The notes under the pieces are model-generated. The model was not told the origin of the DNA and made no database searches. It was given only the letters and a program-made list of their open reading frames with translations. DNA of 34,488 nucleotides from Nitriliruptorales bacterium (GTDB lineage: Bacteria > Actinomycetota > Nitriliruptoria > Euzebyales > JAHELV01). A program made the position numbers and the translations under genes. Positions 2,503 to 19,418 of the stretch are shown here, piece after piece. The stretch is taken from NCBI GenBank assembly GCA_024644015.1, contig JAHELV010000011.1, forward strand, positions 19,962 through 54,449, read 5' to 3'. The first letter of the stretch is position 1. Each line of letters begins with the position of its first letter.

Positions 2503-3276
2503 TTGCCCGTCTGGGCACTGCACCTCGACGCCGATCTCGACGAGGCCAACCTGGCTTGGGCGGCGCTCACGGCGGCGGGCATGGTCGGCGCCGCCGAGGT
2601 CGACGGTCGAGCCGCCGTCTACTTCGCGCAACGTCCCACCGCGGCCCCGCTGCCGGGTCGATGGGAGCGCGTCGCCGACCGCGACTGGCACGAGCGCTGG
2701 CGCGCCGGTCTGACGCCCGTGCGTGCGGGCCGTTGGACGGTCACACCCCCGTGGCTGTCGACGGCCGCGGCCGACGAACTGATCATCGACCCCGGTCAGG
2801 CGTTCGGCACCGGGGACCACGAGACGACCCGGCAAAGCCTCGACGCGCTCGACGGGGTGGCGCTGCCCGAAAGGACCGTGCTCGATGTCGGCACCGGCAC
2901 CGGTGTGCTGGCGATCGCTGCGGCGCGTGGCGGCGCATGGGTCACGGCGATCGACATCGATCCCCTGGCCGTCGCCGCGGCCCGCGACAACGCGCACCGC
3001 AACGGGGTCACGATCGAGGTTCTCGCCGTGGGCATCGACGACCTGGCGGGCCGTACGTTCGACGTCGTCGTCGCCAACCTCGACAGCGCGACACTGATCG
3101 CGTCGGCGCCTGCGCTGCAGGCCGCCCTCGCCGTCGACGGCCTGCTGATCGCCGGCGGGGTGAGCAACGTCCGTGGGGACGAGGTCTGCGCCGCCCTGGA
3201 GCGGTCGGGCCTGCGGGTGCAGCGCGCCGCCGGCACCGAGTGGAGCCTGCTGCGCGGTGAGCGGGCCGGTCCGTGA
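2503..3276 (+). CDS. prmA: PrmA-like SAM-dependent methyltransferase (ribosomal protein L11)
   Basis: 257 aa. Domains follow PrmA: a short N-terminal domain (1-60, with an ADRDWHERWRAGLTPVRAG linker equivalent to the KDWEREW region of PrmA), then a Rossmann SAM domain with DPGQAFGTGDHETTRQ (96-111), LDVGTGTGVLAIAA (127-140) and VVANLDS (189-195) in place of the usual VVANILA. PrmA trimethylates ribosomal protein L11. I chose the TTG at 2503, 2 nt after the upstream stop, because the whole conserved N-terminus follows it; the next in-frame ATG (2581) would delete the first strand. The protein is shorter than E. coli PrmA (~293 aa), mainly in the N-terminal domain. The stop overlaps the next start (GTGA). 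Confidence 0.82.
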   Translation: MPVWALHLDADLDEANLAWAALTAAGMVGAAEVDGRAAVYFAQRPTAAPLPGRWERVADRDWHERWRAGLTPVRAGRWTVTPPWLSTAAADELIIDPGQAFGTGDHETTRQSLDALDGVALPERTVLDVGTGTGVLAIAAARGGAWVTAIDIDPLAVAAARDNAHRNGVTIEVLAVGIDDLAGRTFDVVVANLDSATLIASAPALQAALAVDGLLIAGGVSNVRGDEVCAALERSGLRVQRAAGTEWSLLRGERAGP

Positions 3277-4517
3277 CCCGCGCCGAGCCCGACACCGTGG
3301 TCGAGCTGACACCGCACGGATTCGCGCACGGTGGAGCGGCGGTCGGCCGGCTGCCGGACGGACGCGCGTGTTTCGTCGACTATGCGATCCCTGGCGAGCG
3401 GATTCGTGCGCGCATCACCGACGACCGGCGTCGCTGGGCGCGCGCGACGGTGGTGGAGGTGATCGACCCGTCGCCGGATCGCGTCGAGCCACCGTGCCCC
3501 TTGTTCGGCCCCGGCCGCTGCGGTGGCTGCAAGCTGCAGCACATCACGCCATCCCGGCAGGCCGAGCTGCTCGGCACGGTGATCGCCGACCAGCTGCGAC
3601 GGATCGCGCACCTCGAGGTGCCCGGCGACGGTACTGTCGAAGTGCTGCGTCCCCACTCGCGAGACGGTCTGGGCTACCGCAACCGCGCGCGGTTCGTCGT
3701 CACGCGGTCGGGCCGACTCGGGTTCCGTCGGGCGCGCAGCCACGATCCGGTGATCGTCGACGACTGTCCGTTGCTCGAGCGCTCAGCCCGGGCGATTCTG
3801 AGCCGGATCCGGTCGGGGTGGAGCCAGACCTCACAGGTGCAGCTTCAGGTCGGGTCCGACGGCGGTGGCGCGCTGACCGTGACCGGGCATGGGACTTCTG
3901 TCCCGTCCGATCTGCCGGCGGTCGTCCACAGCCCCGGCGGGCCCGATCGTCGCCTCGGTGATCCGCGAGTGCACCTCGACGTCGGGGGTCGGCGGTTCGT
4001 GGTGAGCGCCGGCAGCTTCTTCCAGGCCAGCGTCGCGGGCGCGGAACTGCTGGTCGACCTCGTGCGCCGCTTCACCGCTGCGTCGCCCGGGGCGCACGTG
4101 GTCGACTGCTACGCGGGAGTTGGGTTGTTCTCGGCCTTTCTCGCAGCTGACGGCGCGCGTGTCACAGCGGTCGAAGCCGGTCCGGCGGCCTGCGCGGACG
4201 CGCGGGTCAACACCGCCGCACTGCCCGTCGAGGTCGTCCTGGCGGATGTGACGACGTCACCGGCCGTGGCGCCGCCGGTGGACGCCGTGGTGCTCGATCC
4301 GCCCCGGGCGGGCGCCGGCCCGGTGGTCGTGGCGTGGGTCGCCGGACTGGAGCCCGCCCGGGTGGTCTATGTGTCGTGCGACCCGGCGACGTTCGCGCGC
4401 GACGCACGCAGCCTCGCCGATGCCGGCTACCTGCTGACCCGGATCGTTGGCGTCGACCAGTTCACCCACACCGCACACGTCGAGATCGTTGCCGCGTTCA
4501 CCCGCCAGAAAGCCTGA
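3273..4517 (+). CDS. TRAM-domain Fe-S RNA (uracil-5-)-methyltransferase, TrmA/RlmC/RlmD family
   Basis: 414 aa. An N-terminal TRAM RNA-binding domain (~6-65) is followed by cysteines C75, C83 and C86 (CPLFGPGRCGGCK) and C165 (DDCPLLE), which match the four 4Fe-4S ligands of RumA/RlmD. The catalytic domain has DCYAGVGLFSAFL (278-290), LDPPRAGAG (341-349), the nucleophile C369 in YVSCDPATF and the general base E404 in HVEIVAAF. These enzymes make m5U in 23S rRNA or tRNA. The usual FxQxN motif reads FFQAS, so Asn is replaced by Ser at ~253. The start is GTG 3273, overlapping the PrmA stop. Position specificity (747, 1939 or tRNA U54) cannot be told. Confidence 0.88.
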   Translation: MTRAEPDTVVELTPHGFAHGGAAVGRLPDGRACFVDYAIPGERIRARITDDRRRWARATVVEVIDPSPDRVEPPCPLFGPGRCGGCKLQHITPSRQAELLGTVIADQLRRIAHLEVPGDGTVEVLRPHSRDGLGYRNRARFVVTRSGRLGFRRARSHDPVIVDDCPLLERSARAILSRIRSGWSQTSQVQLQVGSDGGGALTVTGHGTSVPSDLPAVVHSPGGPDRRLGDPRVHLDVGGRRFVVSAGSFFQASVAGAELLVDLVRRFTAASPGAHVVDCYAGVGLFSAFLAADGARVTAVEAGPAACADARVNTAALPVEVVLADVTTSPAVAPPVDAVVLDPPRAGAGPVVVAWVAGLEPARVVYVSCDPATFARDARSLADAGYLLTRIVGVDQFTHTAHVEIVAAFTRQKA

Positions 4518-4632
4518 TGTGGTGACCGCGGCGGCGGTCAGCCCATGGGCCGCGTTCGGACGGCGAGATGCGGCCGCCGCGGGAGCGCCGTACGTGCAAC
4601 GGCGTGCCTGCAGCGCGCTGTCGGCGCGAAAG

Positions 4633-4780
4633 AGCCGCAGGCGGTGCGGCGGAGGGGTCGTTCGTTGGCACCACCTGCGGCTGGTCCGCTAGGCGGACGG
4701 ACGGAGTATGGCCCACGAGCGTGCGCTTAGCAAACGTTAGTCATGCCGCCGGCGTCGCCGAGCCTGTGACGACGCCGGCG
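4633..4780. other. Structured intergenic region with three successive stem-loops
   Basis: The 333 bp from 4518 to 4850 contain no convincing gene. Three inverted repeats follow one another: 4633-4646 with 4669-4682 (14-bp stem, one C-A mismatch, 22-nt loop), 4684-4689 with 4693-4698 (GTCCGC-TAG-GCGGAC), and 4747-4757 with 4770-4780 (11 bp, 12-nt loop). I saw no B12-box (GCCACTG) of a cobalamin riboswitch. The region could be a leader of the B12-regulator gene, a 3' end of the upstream operon, or a structured RNA of its own. Confidence 0.4.
4747..4780 (+). terminator. Candidate terminator hairpin after the RNA methyltransferase gene
   Basis: A perfect 11-bp GC-rich stem (CGCCGGCGTCG / CGACGCCGGCG) with a 12-nt loop, followed 7 nt later by TTTT. 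It lies about 230 bp past the methyltransferase stop and 70 bp before the next start. The weak T-run makes it only a candidate. Confidence 0.35.
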
Positions 4781-4850
4781 ACACCGATTTTGCGCCGACG
4801 GGCCTGAGGGGTTGAATGGGCGGCAGCGGAAGGTAGGGGGGCCGCCACGC

Positions 4851-5684
4851 ATGGAGCGCCAGACTGCCAGGCTGCTGACGCTTCAGGAGGCGGCCGAGCA
4901 GCTGAATGTGCACTACATGACGGCGTACCGCTGGGTGCGCCGGGGCGACCTGCCCGCGTTCAAGACCGGGGGACGACTCCGTGTGCGTGCCACCGACCTC
5001 GAACGCTTCCTTGCCGACCGGGAGCTCGACGTGGCCATTGGCGGCCGTGGGACGAATCACACCGACTGGGATCGTCATGTCGAGCGCCTGACGTCCGCGC
5101 TGCTGGTCGGCGACGCGGTGCAGGCGCGGGGCGAGGTGCAGAAGGTCATCTCGGACGGCGCGACCGCCGGCAATGTCTACGTCCACCTCATCGCGCCCGC
5201 ACTGCGCGACGTCGGCAACCGCTGGGCGCATGGCGACATCGGCGTCGCCGAGGAGCACCGGGCCAGTCAGATCTGCGTGACGATCGTCGCGCAGCTCAGC
5301 GACCTGTTCCGCCGGCGCGGTCCCTCGCGCGGCACCGCGGTGACGCTGACACCGCCAGACGAGCGGCACGCCATCGCCTCGGCGATGGTGGCCGACTTCC
5401 TGCGGGCCGCCGGCTATTCGGTGCACCACCTCGGCGCGGGTGTTCCGGCCGCGGACCTGTCGATCTTCCTGGCGGCCGTGCCGGCCGACCTGGTCTGCTT
5501 CTCGGTCACACAGCCGATGTCGGTCGAGGCGTACGCCGCCCTCGCGGCTGCCAGCCGCGACACCAACCCGGACGTGGTCGTCGTCTTCGGCGGACAGGGC
5601 GTCGACCCGGACGCCGCGGTGGCGACCGGCGCTCTGGTCGTGACCGACATCGGGGAACTCGCGGAGCACATCGACCAGCTGTGA
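4851..5684 (+). CDS. CarH-like B12-binding regulator with excisionase-type HTH
   Basis: 277 aa. Residues 8-56 form an excisionase/MerR-like helix-turn-helix (LTLQEAAEQLNVHYMTAYRWVRR then GGRLRVRATDLERFL). Residues ~70-155 form the four-helix cap with W125 and E135-H136, an exact W-x9-EH motif as in the adenosylcobalamin photoreceptor CarH. A B12-binding Rossmann domain follows (~160-277) with ERH (171-173), H173 being the expected lower Co ligand, then SVTQPMSVEAYA and VVVVFGGQGV. Known CarH has His directly after the Trp (the light-state ligand); here that position is Ala126, with His127 one residue later. Start ATG 4851 has AGGTAGGGGGG about 9 nt upstream; an upstream in-frame TTG (4812) would add 13 residues. 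Likely a B12-dependent, possibly light-responsive transcription factor; its target is unknown. Confidence 0.8.
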   Translation: MERQTARLLTLQEAAEQLNVHYMTAYRWVRRGDLPAFKTGGRLRVRATDLERFLADRELDVAIGGRGTNHTDWDRHVERLTSALLVGDAVQARGEVQKVISDGATAGNVYVHLIAPALRDVGNRWAHGDIGVAEEHRASQICVTIVAQLSDLFRRRGPSRGTAVTLTPPDERHAIASAMVADFLRAAGYSVHHLGAGVPAADLSIFLAAVPADLVCFSVTQPMSVEAYAALAAASRDTNPDVVVVFGGQGVDPDAAVATGALVVTDIGELAEHIDQL

Positions 5685-5826: not shown

Positions 5827-6798
5827 GTGCACAGAATCGCAGTGTTGACCAGCGGCGGCGATGCGCCGGGCATGAATGCGGCTCTGCGTGCCGTTGTGCG
5901 CTCCGCGGACGCACGCGGCATCGACGTCTATGGCGTTCGGAGCGGCTACGAGGGCCTGATCGACGGCGAGCTGTCGCCTCTGAGCGCCCGTAGCGTGTCG
6001 AGCATCCTGCACCTGGGCGGCACCATGCTCGGCACGGCACGGTCGGAGCGCTTCCTCACGGTCGAAGGCCGTCAGAAGGCGATCAGCGCGCTGGCTGCGC
6101 ACCAGATCGAGGGCCTCGTCGTGATCGGTGGGGATGGCTCGTTCCGGGGCGCCGACGTGTTGTCACACGAGTGCGATGTCGCGGTCGTCGGCGTGCCCGG
6201 CACGATCGACAACGACCTGTCGGGGTGCGACTACACGTTGGGATTCGACACGGCCGTCAACACGGCACTGGACGCGATCGATCGGATCAGGGACACCGCG
6301 GCCAGCCACAAGCGCGCGTTCTTCATCGAGGTCATGGGTCGCTCGAGCGGATGGATCGGGCTTCACTCCGCGATCGCCGGTGGCGCGACGGACGTGCTGC
6401 TGCCGGAGCGTCCGACCGACATCGACGAGTTGCAGCACCGCATCCACGAGGCGTTCCGCATGGGTAAGCAGTACTGCCTGATCGTCGTCGCCGAAGGCGA
6501 CGACGCGGGCGGCGCGTTCGAGGTGGCCCAACGGTGCAGCGAGGGTCTGGCGGGCGTGAGCCACCGCGTCACGGCGCTCGGCCATGTGCAGCGTGGAGGC
6601 CCGCCGCTGATGCGCGACCGCGTCCTCGCAGCGCGCCTGGGGGATGCGGCCGTCACGGCGTTGATCGACGGCGAGAATCGCGTCATGGTCGGTGAGGTCC
6701 ACTGGGAGGTCGTGCGCACGCCACTGGAGCACACGTGGACGGCTGTCGACCCCCCGAACCGGGAGCTCATGGAACTGATGGATCGTCTGGCGCGCTGA
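5827..6798 (+). CDS. pfkA: ATP-dependent 6-phosphofructokinase
   Basis: 323 aa, typical group I PFK length. It phosphorylates fructose-6-phosphate to fructose-1,6-bisphosphate in glycolysis. Motifs: LTSGGDAPGMNAALRAVV (7-24), GGDGSFRGA (101-109), PGTIDND (124-130) with the catalytic Asp, GFDTAVNTA, EVMGRSSGWIGLH and GHVQRGGPP. Gly104 in GGDGS, and Gly rather than Lys in PGTIDND, mark the ATP-dependent type rather than the PPi-dependent one. Start GTG 5827 has a GGACAGGA-like site upstream. The 142-bp gap before it holds GAGAT-N10-ATCTC (5741-5760), which could be an operator for the adjacent B12 regulator; this is speculation. It is convergent with the redoxin gene only 13 bp away. Confidence 0.93.
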   Translation: MHRIAVLTSGGDAPGMNAALRAVVRSADARGIDVYGVRSGYEGLIDGELSPLSARSVSSILHLGGTMLGTARSERFLTVEGRQKAISALAAHQIEGLVVIGGDGSFRGADVLSHECDVAVVGVPGTIDNDLSGCDYTLGFDTAVNTALDAIDRIRDTAASHKRAFFIEVMGRSSGWIGLHSAIAGGATDVLLPERPTDIDELQHRIHEAFRMGKQYCLIVVAEGDDAGGAFEVAQRCSEGLAGVSHRVTALGHVQRGGPPLMRDRVLAARLGDAAVTALIDGENRVMVGEVHWEVVRTPLEHTWTAVDPPNRELMELMDRLAR

Positions 6799-17383: not shown

Positions 17384-18700
17384 ATGGCTGAGCACGATCA
17401 GAGCACGGACGCGGTGATCATTGGCGCGGGCGTCATCGGGGCGGCCGTCGGCTTCGAGCTCGCCAGACGCGGGTGGCGCACGCTGAACATCGACGCGCTG
17501 CCGGCCGCGGGGTTCGGCTCGACGTCCAACTCGTGCGCCATCGTGCGGTTCACCTACTCGACCTACGACGGTGTCGCCATGTCCTGGGAAGGCCTGCACT
17601 ACTGGACCGACTGGCCCGCGTACCTCGACGCGTCCGACGAACGCGGTCTCGCCAGCCTGGTGCAGTGCGGCACGCTGCTGCTCAAGAACCCCGGCGGCCA
17701 CCACGGGCGGGTGCAGCCGCTGTTCGACAAGATCGGCATCCCGTACGAGGACTGGGACGCCGACACCCTGCGCAAGCAGATGCCTGCGTTCGACACCGGT
17801 GTGTTCGGGCCGCCGCGTCCCGTCGACGACGACGCCTTCTGGGAGACGCCGACGCACAAGCTGCCGGGCGCCATATGGACGCCCCAGTCCGGCTACGTCA
17901 GTGACCCGCAGTTGGCCAGCCACAACCTGCAACGCGCTGCCGAGGCCAAGGGCGCGCGCTTCCGCTTCTCTACCAAGGTGACCGGCATCCAACGGTCCGG
18001 CGACCGCGTCACCGGTGTCACGCTGGACGACGGCACGACCGTCGGTGCGCCGGTCGTGGTCAACGTGGCGGGGCCGCACTCTGCGGTGATCAACGACCTC
18101 GCAGGTCTCTCGGGGAGCATGCGGATCGGCACCCGCCCGCTGCGCCACGAGGTGCACCACGTCGCCGCACCACCGTCGATCGACTACGAGCACACCGGCG
18201 TCCACGTGTCCGACGGCGATACGGGCGTCTACTTCCGCCCGGAGACCGGCAACAGCATCCTCGTCGGCTCCGAGGACCCCGAGTGCGACGCGCGGGACTG
18301 GGTGGACGATCCCGATGACTTCGACCGCTCGATCACCGCCGCGCAGTGGGACGCGCAGGTGCTGCGCCTCGCACGCCGCATCCCCGACCTGGGCGTACCC
18401 AACCAGCGCCGCGGAGTCGTCGACCTGTACGACGTCGCCGACGACTGGATCCCGATCTACGACCGCACCGACCTCGGCGGGTTCTACGTCGCGATCGGCA
18501 CGTCGGGCAACCAGTTCAAGAACGCCGGAGTCGCGGGCCACTGCATGGCCGAGCTCATCGAAGCCGTCCAGGGTGGGCACGACCACGACGCCGAACCGTT
18601 GGTCGTGACCGGCAGATACACCGGCCTCGACCTGCACCTGGGTTCCTTCTCCAGGAACCGCGCGATCAACCCCGACAGCTCGTTCTCGGTCAATGGCTGA
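17384..18700 (+). CDS. DAO-family FAD oxidoreductase (sarcosine/glycine oxidase-like)
   Basis: 438 aa, single-domain DAO fold. The FAD motif is DAVIIGAGVIGAAVGFEL (9-26); later hallmarks are VVVNVAGPHSAVIN, the Arg-containing YFRPETGNSILVG and the C-terminal GFYVAIGTSGNQFKNAG, where the FAD pyrimidine/substrate region lies. Relatives are monomeric or beta-subunit sarcosine oxidases and N-methyl amino-acid oxidases. As first gene of the rightward operon with the corrinoid protein, it probably removes an N-methyl group oxidatively after the corrinoid methyl transfer. Start ATG 17384 is preceded by a GGATCGGGG-like site. The TGA stop at 18698-18700 overlaps an alternative ATG (18693) of the next gene. 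Confidence 0.82.
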   Translation: MAEHDQSTDAVIIGAGVIGAAVGFELARRGWRTLNIDALPAAGFGSTSNSCAIVRFTYSTYDGVAMSWEGLHYWTDWPAYLDASDERGLASLVQCGTLLLKNPGGHHGRVQPLFDKIGIPYEDWDADTLRKQMPAFDTGVFGPPRPVDDDAFWETPTHKLPGAIWTPQSGYVSDPQLASHNLQRAAEAKGARFRFSTKVTGIQRSGDRVTGVTLDDGTTVGAPVVVNVAGPHSAVINDLAGLSGSMRIGTRPLRHEVHHVAAPPSIDYEHTGVHVSDGDTGVYFRPETGNSILVGSEDPECDARDWVDDPDDFDRSITAAQWDAQVLRLARRIPDLGVPNQRRGVVDLYDVADDWIPIYDRTDLGGFYVAIGTSGNQFKNAGVAGHCMAELIEAVQGGHDHDAEPLVVTGRYTGLDLHLGSFSRNRAINPDSSFSVNG

Positions 18701-18722
18701 GCGCGCGGACGGAGACCCTGCC

Positions 18723-19418
18723 ATGAGCGACGAGGACCTGGACCTGTCGACGTTGCCCGACGAAGAGCTCGTCGAGCAGATGCACGACGACCTGTACGAC
18801 GGCCTCGCCGACGAGATCGCAGAGGGCACCCGCGTCCTCCTGGACCGCGGCTGGGAACCCCAGCGTGTGCTCAACACCGCCCTGGTCGAGGGCATGCGCA
18901 TCGTCGGCATCGACTTCCGAGACGGCATTCTGTTCGTGCCCGAGGTCCTGCTGGCGGCCAACGCCATGAAGGCCGGCATGGCCATCCTGCGCCCGCTGCT
19001 CGCCGAGACCGGGGCCGACACCATCGGCAAGGTCGTCATCGGCACCGTGAAGGGCGACATCCACGACATCGGCAAGAACCTGGTCGGGATGATGCTCGAA
19101 GGCGCCGGCTTCGAGGTCGTCGACATCGGCATCAACAACGACGTCAACGCCTATCTGCACGCGCTCGACGAGCAGCAGCCCGACATCCTCGGCATGTCCG
19201 CGCTGCTGACCACGACGATGCCGTACATGAAGGTGGTCATCGACGAGCTGGCCGAGCGCGGTCTGCGTGACCGGTACATCGTGCTGGTCGGCGGCGCGCC
19301 CCTGAACGAGGACTTCGGACGTGCGGTCGGTGCCGACGCCTACTGCCGGGACGCCGCCGCGGCGGCCGAGACCGCACAGGCGCTCGTGCTCGCACGGCGC
19401 GCGGCGACGGCGGGCTGA
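18723..19418 (+). CDS. MtbC/MtgC-type corrinoid protein (B12-binding methyl carrier)
   Basis: 231 aa. Residues ~15-95 form the B12-binding helical cap (LVEGMRIVGIDFRDGILFVPEVLLAANAMKAGM). Residues ~100-225 form the Rossmann B12 domain with VIGTVKGDIHDIGKNLV, i.e. the D-x-H-x-x-G motif with Co-ligand H114, then GMSALLTTTMPYMK and LVGGAPLNEDFGRAVGADAY. It is the methyl shuttle between the MttB-like enzyme and the methyl-THF methyltransferase. I chose ATG 18723 (GGAG 8 nt upstream); the ATG at 18693 would overlap the upstream gene and add 10 residues. Sequence and size are standard for the family. Confidence 0.93.
   Translation: MSDEDLDLSTLPDEELVEQMHDDLYDGLADEIAEGTRVLLDRGWEPQRVLNTALVEGMRIVGIDFRDGILFVPEVLLAANAMKAGMAILRPLLAETGADTIGKVVIGTVKGDIHDIGKNLVGMMLEGAGFEVVDIGINNDVNAYLHALDEQQPDILGMSALLTTTMPYMKVVIDELAERGLRDRYIVLVGGAPLNEDFGRAVGADAYCRDAAAAAETAQALVLARRAATAG

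Follow-up and report, generated by a model that had tools for sequence, protein, structure and literature searches.

A Nitriliruptorales regulator combining an excisionase-type DNA-binding domain with a CarH-type cobalamin domain that lacks the upper histidine, and a candidate operator upstream of its gene

INTRODUCTION

By sequence, the closest relatives with solved structures of the regulator described here are chains of CarH/LitR from Thermus thermophilus (TtCarH; PDB 5C8A-5C8F and 8C31-8C37), in which a MerR DNA-binding domain is combined with a cobalamin domain of four-helix and Rossmann parts. The latter carries a Wx9EH motif and a lower histidine, His177 (PMC10442372). A His directly after the Trp, His132 in TtCarH, acts as the upper cobalt ligand in the light, which is a feature of many CarH proteins (PMC9304148). 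Whether switching of cobalamin photoreceptors needs this His is disputed for the H132A variant of TtCarH, in which photolysis occurs and the protein mostly stays tetrameric, while an earlier report described disassembly (PMC10442372).

Other light-responsive cobalamin proteins do without the upper His. Among SasPcob, the protein of PDB 8J2Y, CtMerR and TtCarH, it is present in TtCarH only (PMC11796333). CtMerR of Chloracidobacterium thermophilum (PDB 8JBS and 8JBT), described as a member of the MerR family, has Arg at that position and goes from tetramer to monomer in the light, and the photocobilins SasPcob (8J2W) and 8J2Y, with Gln and Tyr in its place, undergo the same spectral light change (PMC11796333). 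The photocobilins have a biliverdin-binding domain, and the available part of that source describes no helix-turn-helix (HTH) domain for them. For DNA binding, a further point of comparison is Streptomyces BldC, a small MerR-like winged HTH protein without an effector domain that occupies direct repeats (9-bp AATTNNNNC repeats) as head-to-tail oligomers (PMC5859096).

In this study, we analyzed a window of 34,488 nt from a Nitriliruptorales bacterium (assembly GCA_024644015.1, contig JAHELV010000011.1, positions 19,962 to 54,449), which encodes a regulator that resembles CarH in outline. At roughly even odds (about 0.5), we read it as an autoregulatory transcription factor in which a BldC-like, excisionase-type HTH domain would be controlled by a CarH-type cobalamin domain.

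RESULTS AND DISCUSSION

Domain architecture and predicted fold

The regulator gene starts at ATG4851 and encodes a protein of 277 aa (Table 1). Its N-terminal domain, which a previous sequence-only reading had called excisionase-like, is matched by Pfam HTH_17 (3.6e-16) and, over residues 8-55, by the NCBIfam excisionase model TIGR01764 (1.5e-14; 54.1 bits, above the curated cut-off of 28.8). The remainder is matched by Pfam B12-binding_2 (2.1e-11) and B12-binding (4.7e-13). Likeness to BldC is a weak match, with 22.5 bits against the BldC model NF033787, under its cut-off of 77. The CarH model NF052513 gave 95.7 bits over residues 76-273 only and its cut-off of 400 bits was not reached; this cut-off is a weak test, as none of 396 genomes of the phylum passes it and neither does a Thermus composti control. 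The CarH model stops short of residues 8-57, where CarH would have its MerR-type domain and where HTH_17 and the excisionase model match instead. As the MerR domain is absent, the regulator was not filed as CarH; judged by its domain matches, it is an excisionase-type HTH fused to a CarH-type cobalamin domain.

Table 1. Coordinates of the regulator gene, its domains and key residues, and the upstream features in the window
Feature	Position	Strand	Basis or remark
Conserved hairpin with a covarying stem of 13 bp and a conserved loop	4633..4682	+	Possibly linked to the regulator
Candidate operator TTAGCAAACGTTAG, 10-bp direct repeat of TTAG	4727..4740	+	Exact match to TTAKCAANNNTTAG; upstream-region statistics
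Regulator gene	4851..5684	+	Orthologue in 21/30 order-level genomes (own included; 1 cut by contig end)
DNA-binding domain, HTH_17/excisionase type, residues 8-57	4872..5021	+	Pfam and NCBIfam; VHYMTAYR core conserved
B12-binding_2 four-helix domain, residues 78-149	5082..5297	+	Pfam; AlphaFold2 model
W125-A126-H127: Trp of the Wx9EH motif, followed by Ala where CarH has His132	5223..5231	+	
E135-H136	5253..5258	+	Invariant in 81/81
B12-binding Rossmann domain, residues 162-269	5334..5657	+	Pfam; VIA-align Z about 20 to 26 against photocobilin, CtMerR and CarH domains
H173, predicted lower cobalt ligand	5367..5369	+	Invariant in 81/81; alignment partner in TtCarH is the His of GERH

An AlphaFold2 model built from 79 sequences had a mean pLDDT of 92.6. 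The closest structures to its cobalamin part in VIA-align were the photocobilins, SasPcob (Z 25.7; 204 residues, rmsd 1.8) and 8J2Y, which we take to be AbDPcob (Z 23.6), followed by CtMerR (Z 23.2; 22% identity over the cobalamin domain) and TtCarH (Z 22.7; 198 residues, rmsd 2.3, 31% identity), where Z differences under 1 count as ties. By sequence, the TtCarH chains ranked first among solved structures, led by 8C35 (E 2.5e-21), which is itself the H132A variant (PMC10442372).

The upper-ligand position in the family

The regulator carries the Wx9EH motif of CarH (W125, E135-H136), and its alignment with TtCarH is ungapped over the motif (GNRWAHGDIGVAEEH over GEAWHRGEIGVAEEH). With no gap in that alignment, Ala126 (codon 5226-5228) occupies the place of His132, between W125 (5223-5225) and H127 (5229-5231). 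The upper-ligand His found after the Trp in CarH is therefore absent from the window protein. The sequence-only reading had placed these residues correctly, including H173 as an AdoCbl-binding residue, and the one-residue shift that it considered as a way of bringing His127 to the His132 place did not occur.

The frequency of the missing His was determined in a family set of 81 proteins, consisting of the window and 80 loci kept out of 225 found in a scan of genome contigs. Outside Nitriliruptorales lie 67 of the 80 loci; 38 of these were counted as Acidimicrobiia, a count that takes in Ilumatobacteraceae, Microthrixaceae and Ferrithrix on our assumption that they belong to that class, and the rest are labelled less precisely or otherwise. 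A second set consisted of 21 orthologues from 30 order-level genomes. Because the Nitriliruptorales loci of the family set (L035-L047) overlap with these genomes, the counts of the two sets were not added. The coding regions around the loci are simple ORF picks rather than gene-finder calls.

G122, W125, G128, E135, H136, H173 and G195 were invariant in all 81 proteins, a conservation of the pocket well beyond chance. The residue after the Trp was Ala in 47, Glu in 16, Ser in 7, Val in 3, His in 3, Arg in 2, Gln in 2 and Lys in 1, so that 78/81 proteins keep the Trp, the EH pair and the lower His without the upper His. Likewise, the order-level orthologues had Ala (12), Glu (6), Val (2) or Ser (1) at this position and His in none. 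As a control, a CarH search covered 396 genomes of the phylum and matched in 62 of them; among the 30 CarH-like loci retrieved from it, the His was present in 2 and absent in 28. Given its absence from 78/81 family proteins and 28/30 CarH-like loci, the missing upper His is ordinary, and the rarity implied by the sequence-only reading was mistaken. It is a family trait that is already represented among characterized photoreceptors.

It had also been proposed that His127 might serve as a displaced ligand, replacing His132 of CarH in the light state. His127 does adjoin the right position in the window protein and in one same-genus relative (G002). However, a His two residues after the Trp occurs in just 1/81 family proteins (the window alone) and 2/21 order-level orthologues (these two), and the alignment is gapless. 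A role for His127 is thus unsupported, and we regard this explanation as scarcely credible.

In a FastTree phylogeny of the cobalamin domains, the three His-bearing loci, L049-L051, formed one group (0.997), and a further 43 loci, here termed the imu clade, split off as a separate clade (0.975). The outgroup row L177 is a wrong reading frame and was disregarded. No full-length match was found in 9 of the 30 order-level genomes, some of which are incomplete; one of the nine, the same-genus genome G001, holds a truncated remnant only.

Light signature and cobalamin supply

The published signature of light-responsive cobalamin domains (SignatureFinder) requires GxxW, EH, GxxH and GxxxP together, and all four elements were present in 71/81 family proteins. 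The window regulator has three of them (G122-W125, E135-H136 and G195-P199). In the fourth, GxxH reads D170-E-R-H173, where 73/81 proteins have Gly, which places the window among the 10/81 proteins without the full signature. The CarH B12 motif D/ExHx2G/Px41SxT/Vx22-27GG gave no match in its strict form, and a match from E171 is obtained only if Ala176 is allowed for G/P. A search of the own genome for a PduO-type adenosyltransferase found none.

The deviations D170 and Ala176 around the lower ligand, together with the result for the adenosyltransferase, could be explained by a CarA-like regulator that does not need adenosylcobalamin. CarA, though, is without the Trp of Wx9EH (PMC9304148), and this Trp is kept in 81/81 proteins here, which makes such a regulator unlikely.

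Another explanation is a dark sensor of AdoCbl supply, or of B12 redox state or oxygen, in which light has no physiological part. This would agree with the missing upper His, the missing signature element, the two searched neighbors, neither of which is a light gene, and the largely tetrameric state of TtCarH H132A after light in one study (PMC10442372). It sits poorly with the invariance of W125 and E135-H136, with the full signature in 71/81 relatives and with the photolyase genes adjoining two relatives. Furthermore, CtMerR switches without the His (PMC11796333). A dark sensor is therefore doubtful, though it has a real chance of being correct. The sequence-only reading had offered a choice between a dark B12 sensor and a displaced His; the first need not be assumed, as CtMerR with its Arg switches in the light, and the second is unsupported. 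We infer from the conserved residues and fold that the window protein would bind AdoCbl and respond to light, and it is probably a light-sensitive AdoCbl regulator without the upper His.

Candidate operator

The candidate operator in Table 1 ends 110 nt ahead of ATG4851; nowhere else does the 4.0-Mb genome match TTAKCAANNNTTAG exactly. Across the 30 order-level genomes, the pattern had 10 matches, 6 of which precede the called start of the regulator gene by 53-131 nt, in the own genome and five relatives (G000, G002, G003, G013, G017 and G025). The other four lie away from the gene (G004, G008, G027 and G029), and the one in G027 repeats all 14 bases of the site in the window. In the same genomes, the reversed pattern had 4 matches. 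A relaxed form, TTA[GT]N6TTAG, was found upstream of 8/21 orthologues against a mean of 0.01 in resampled upstream regions, the resampling being first-order Markov rather than exact shuffling. As the upstream patterns, including the TTAG repeat, were spotted by eye before they were counted, these statistics are after the fact.

CarH operators are 11-bp TnnACA repeats (PMC9304148), whereas the candidate here is a 10-bp repeat of TTAG; no TnnACA occurs on either strand of 4518-4850. Because the repeat is unique in the genome and lies upstream of the same gene in five relatives, it suggests autoregulation by cooperative binding to a direct repeat.

No support was obtained for a regulon beyond the regulator's own gene. 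With one mismatch allowed, the own genome contained 1 further site (on contig C151, close upstream of what by eye is a sugar-kinase-like ORF) against 5 matches to the reversed pattern.

An operator common to all groups of the family was likewise not found. The TTAG direct repeat was absent from all 37 upstream regions of the imu group and all 25 of the remaining loci outside Nitriliruptorales, and these groups show other patterns, namely, T[TC]ACGCA in 21/37 regions of the imu group and a TTTAGYRNTAAA-like palindrome in 11/25 of the others. These counts exclude L058, L068, L070, L084 and L111, and L107, which belongs to the imu clade by the tree, was counted among the others. The palindrome, which resembles TTTAG(C/T)(A/G)NTAAA, lies about 100 nt or less from the called start in L049, L050, L051, L063, L079, L096, L097, L099, L104, L105 and L112.

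Neighboring genes of the sister groups

In two of the three His-bearing loci, L049 (8808-13220) and L050 (9480-12777), acyltransferase and DNA photolyase genes are located downstream of the regulator gene, from which they are separated by a gene for a sigma factor (L049) or an anti-sigma factor (L050). The two searched neighbors of L051 encode DUF3179 and DUF885 proteins. At 21 further loci, 80 of 162 picked neighbor ORFs were searched, and the most frequent families were sigma-70 region 2 and sigma-70 region 4 with 7 occurrences each, ahead of short-chain dehydrogenase and epimerase with 6 each. Region 1.2 is present in at least three of the neighboring sigma factors, which resemble primary sigma factors. 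Genes for photolyase and short-chain dehydrogenase also occur near class II LitR in Pseudomonas (PMC9758184), a parallel that is suggestive only.

In the imu clade, a member of the imuA' cluster followed the regulator in 37/38 loci with at least 1 kb of downstream sequence, and a dnaE2 cluster member was present in 20/25 loci with at least 7 kb. Representatives were identified as imuA' (NF058630, with two exceeding the cut-off), an ImuB-like polymerase with an IMS domain and a polymerase of the DnaE2 type. Loci outside the clade contained no member of the imuA' or imuB clusters. Loci of this type occur among L048-L113 (e.g., L085:10929-16464), often with NUDIX and dnaE2 genes as well.

This arrangement raises the possibility that the main task of the family is control of DNA damage tolerance, with light or B12 signals feeding into the ImuA'-ImuB-DnaE2 genes. 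However, imuA' has a GAACN4GTTC box of its own, which we take to be a LexA/SOS box, in 22/24 loci where it is adjacent to the regulator and 12/13 with an intervening gene. Adjacency alone thus shows no control by the B12 regulator, and control of the imu genes as an operon, given the separate box in 34/37 loci, was demoted to a rival explanation. In the window genome, moreover, imuA'-imuB lies on another contig (C26), with CGAACGTGTGTTCG and no TTAG repeat in the stretch before imuA', and the imu genes were rejected as a trans target there. We consider a main role in damage tolerance quite improbable.

A broader generalization would be that the family is a widespread actinobacterial class of B12 photoreceptors, mostly without bis-His ligation, in which oligomerization driven by AdoCbl would line up BldC-like HTH domains as a short filament on 10-bp direct repeats and light would release it simply through loss of the adenosyl group, the switch being tied to mutagenesis genes in one clade. 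This is rather unlikely; if true, daylight or B12 would tune error-prone repair in that clade in addition to SOS. A literature search by titles and the beginnings of abstracts, with most subscription papers outside its scope, returned nothing on the family or on a link between light and mutagenesis, which is no proof that neither has been published. The photolyase neighbors of two His-bearing loci and the imuA'-imuB-dnaE2 neighbors of the His-less clade offer test genes for a light or B12 input to DNA repair. Together with the operator, these neighborhoods are the new, testable parts of the finding.

Proposed mechanism

For the window regulator itself, we favor light- and AdoCbl-dependent autoregulation. 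In the dark, AdoCbl would be bound with H173 as the lower ligand and with W125, E135 and H136 around the adenosyl group, and its binding would drive oligomerization. Several HTH domains could then cooperatively occupy the TTAG-N6-TTAG direct repeat and keep the promoter of the regulator gene repressed. Green or blue light would break the Co-C bond, and the adenosyl group would leave. Water or hydroxide would presumably take the upper site, as the position that serves bis-His ligation in CarH lacks a His here, and the oligomer would loosen and release the promoter. What the analysis shows are the domains, the residues, a predicted fold and the location and rarity of the site; AdoCbl binding, oligomerization, the response to light, binding of the regulator at the site and the direction of its effect are steps that we infer.

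Several observations are consistent with this mechanism. W125, E135, H136 and H173 are invariant while the position after the Trp varies, most of the family carries the full light signature, and the model is closest to light-responsive cobalamin domains. CtMerR provides a precedent for switching without the His (PMC11796333), and BldC one for oligomers on direct repeats (PMC5859096). The operator match statistics and the photolyase genes downstream of L049 and L050 point in the same direction.

Other observations count against it. The window gene has non-light neighbors, the one photolyase of the own genome lies on another contig, and the neighbors of L051 are DUF3179 and DUF885. D170 and Ala176 deviate, and the PduO-type adenosyltransferase was not found. 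No full-length match was obtained in 9/30 genomes, some of them incomplete, the repeat lies upstream of under half of the orthologues, and 4/10 exact matches are elsewhere. With a 14-bp predicted operator and a His-bearing minority in L049-L051 among otherwise His-less natural variants, the question of the upper His is open to direct test.

Hairpin and other features of the window and genome

The hairpin upstream of the candidate operator has changes on both sides in 8 of its 13 stem pairs and one-side-only changes in none, and its loop of 22 nt contains GGCGGAGGGGTCGWTCGT. Since the hairpins were first picked with the exact loop pattern, the invariance of the loop is partly by construction. 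One copy each was found in 8/61 genomes; in seven it precedes the regulator gene or what remains of it, and in G017 it lies at a contig end. A covariance model run on 66 genomes recovered these eight as its strong matches, added two weak ones at 38 bits (G001:C187 and G039) and also matched the reverse strand of the G001 hairpin. Rfam gave no match to the hairpin at gathering level and only chance-level ones below. In G001 (L180, G001:C27:5000-10500), the hairpin and a TTAGCAAACGCTAG site are kept, and a truncated start of the regulator precedes the phosphofructokinase gene.

The regulator gene of the window lies between rlmD/rumA (3273-4517) and a 6-phosphofructokinase gene (5827-6798), and a phosphofructokinase gene follows in the three same-genus genomes as well; neither of these two searched neighbors is a light gene. 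A second corrinoid protein is encoded in the window at 18693-19418 (+), with best matches, below cut-offs, to the MtgC, MtbC and MtaC models. In addition to further B12 domains, the own genome holds a CarH-like paralogue on contig C95 that by eye has a MerR-like N terminus and has Leu after the Trp. TGTCTAAGGTT occurs twice upstream of this paralogue (L179:6700-6900, G000:C95), and an ORF whose product looks secreted points away from it on the opposite strand.
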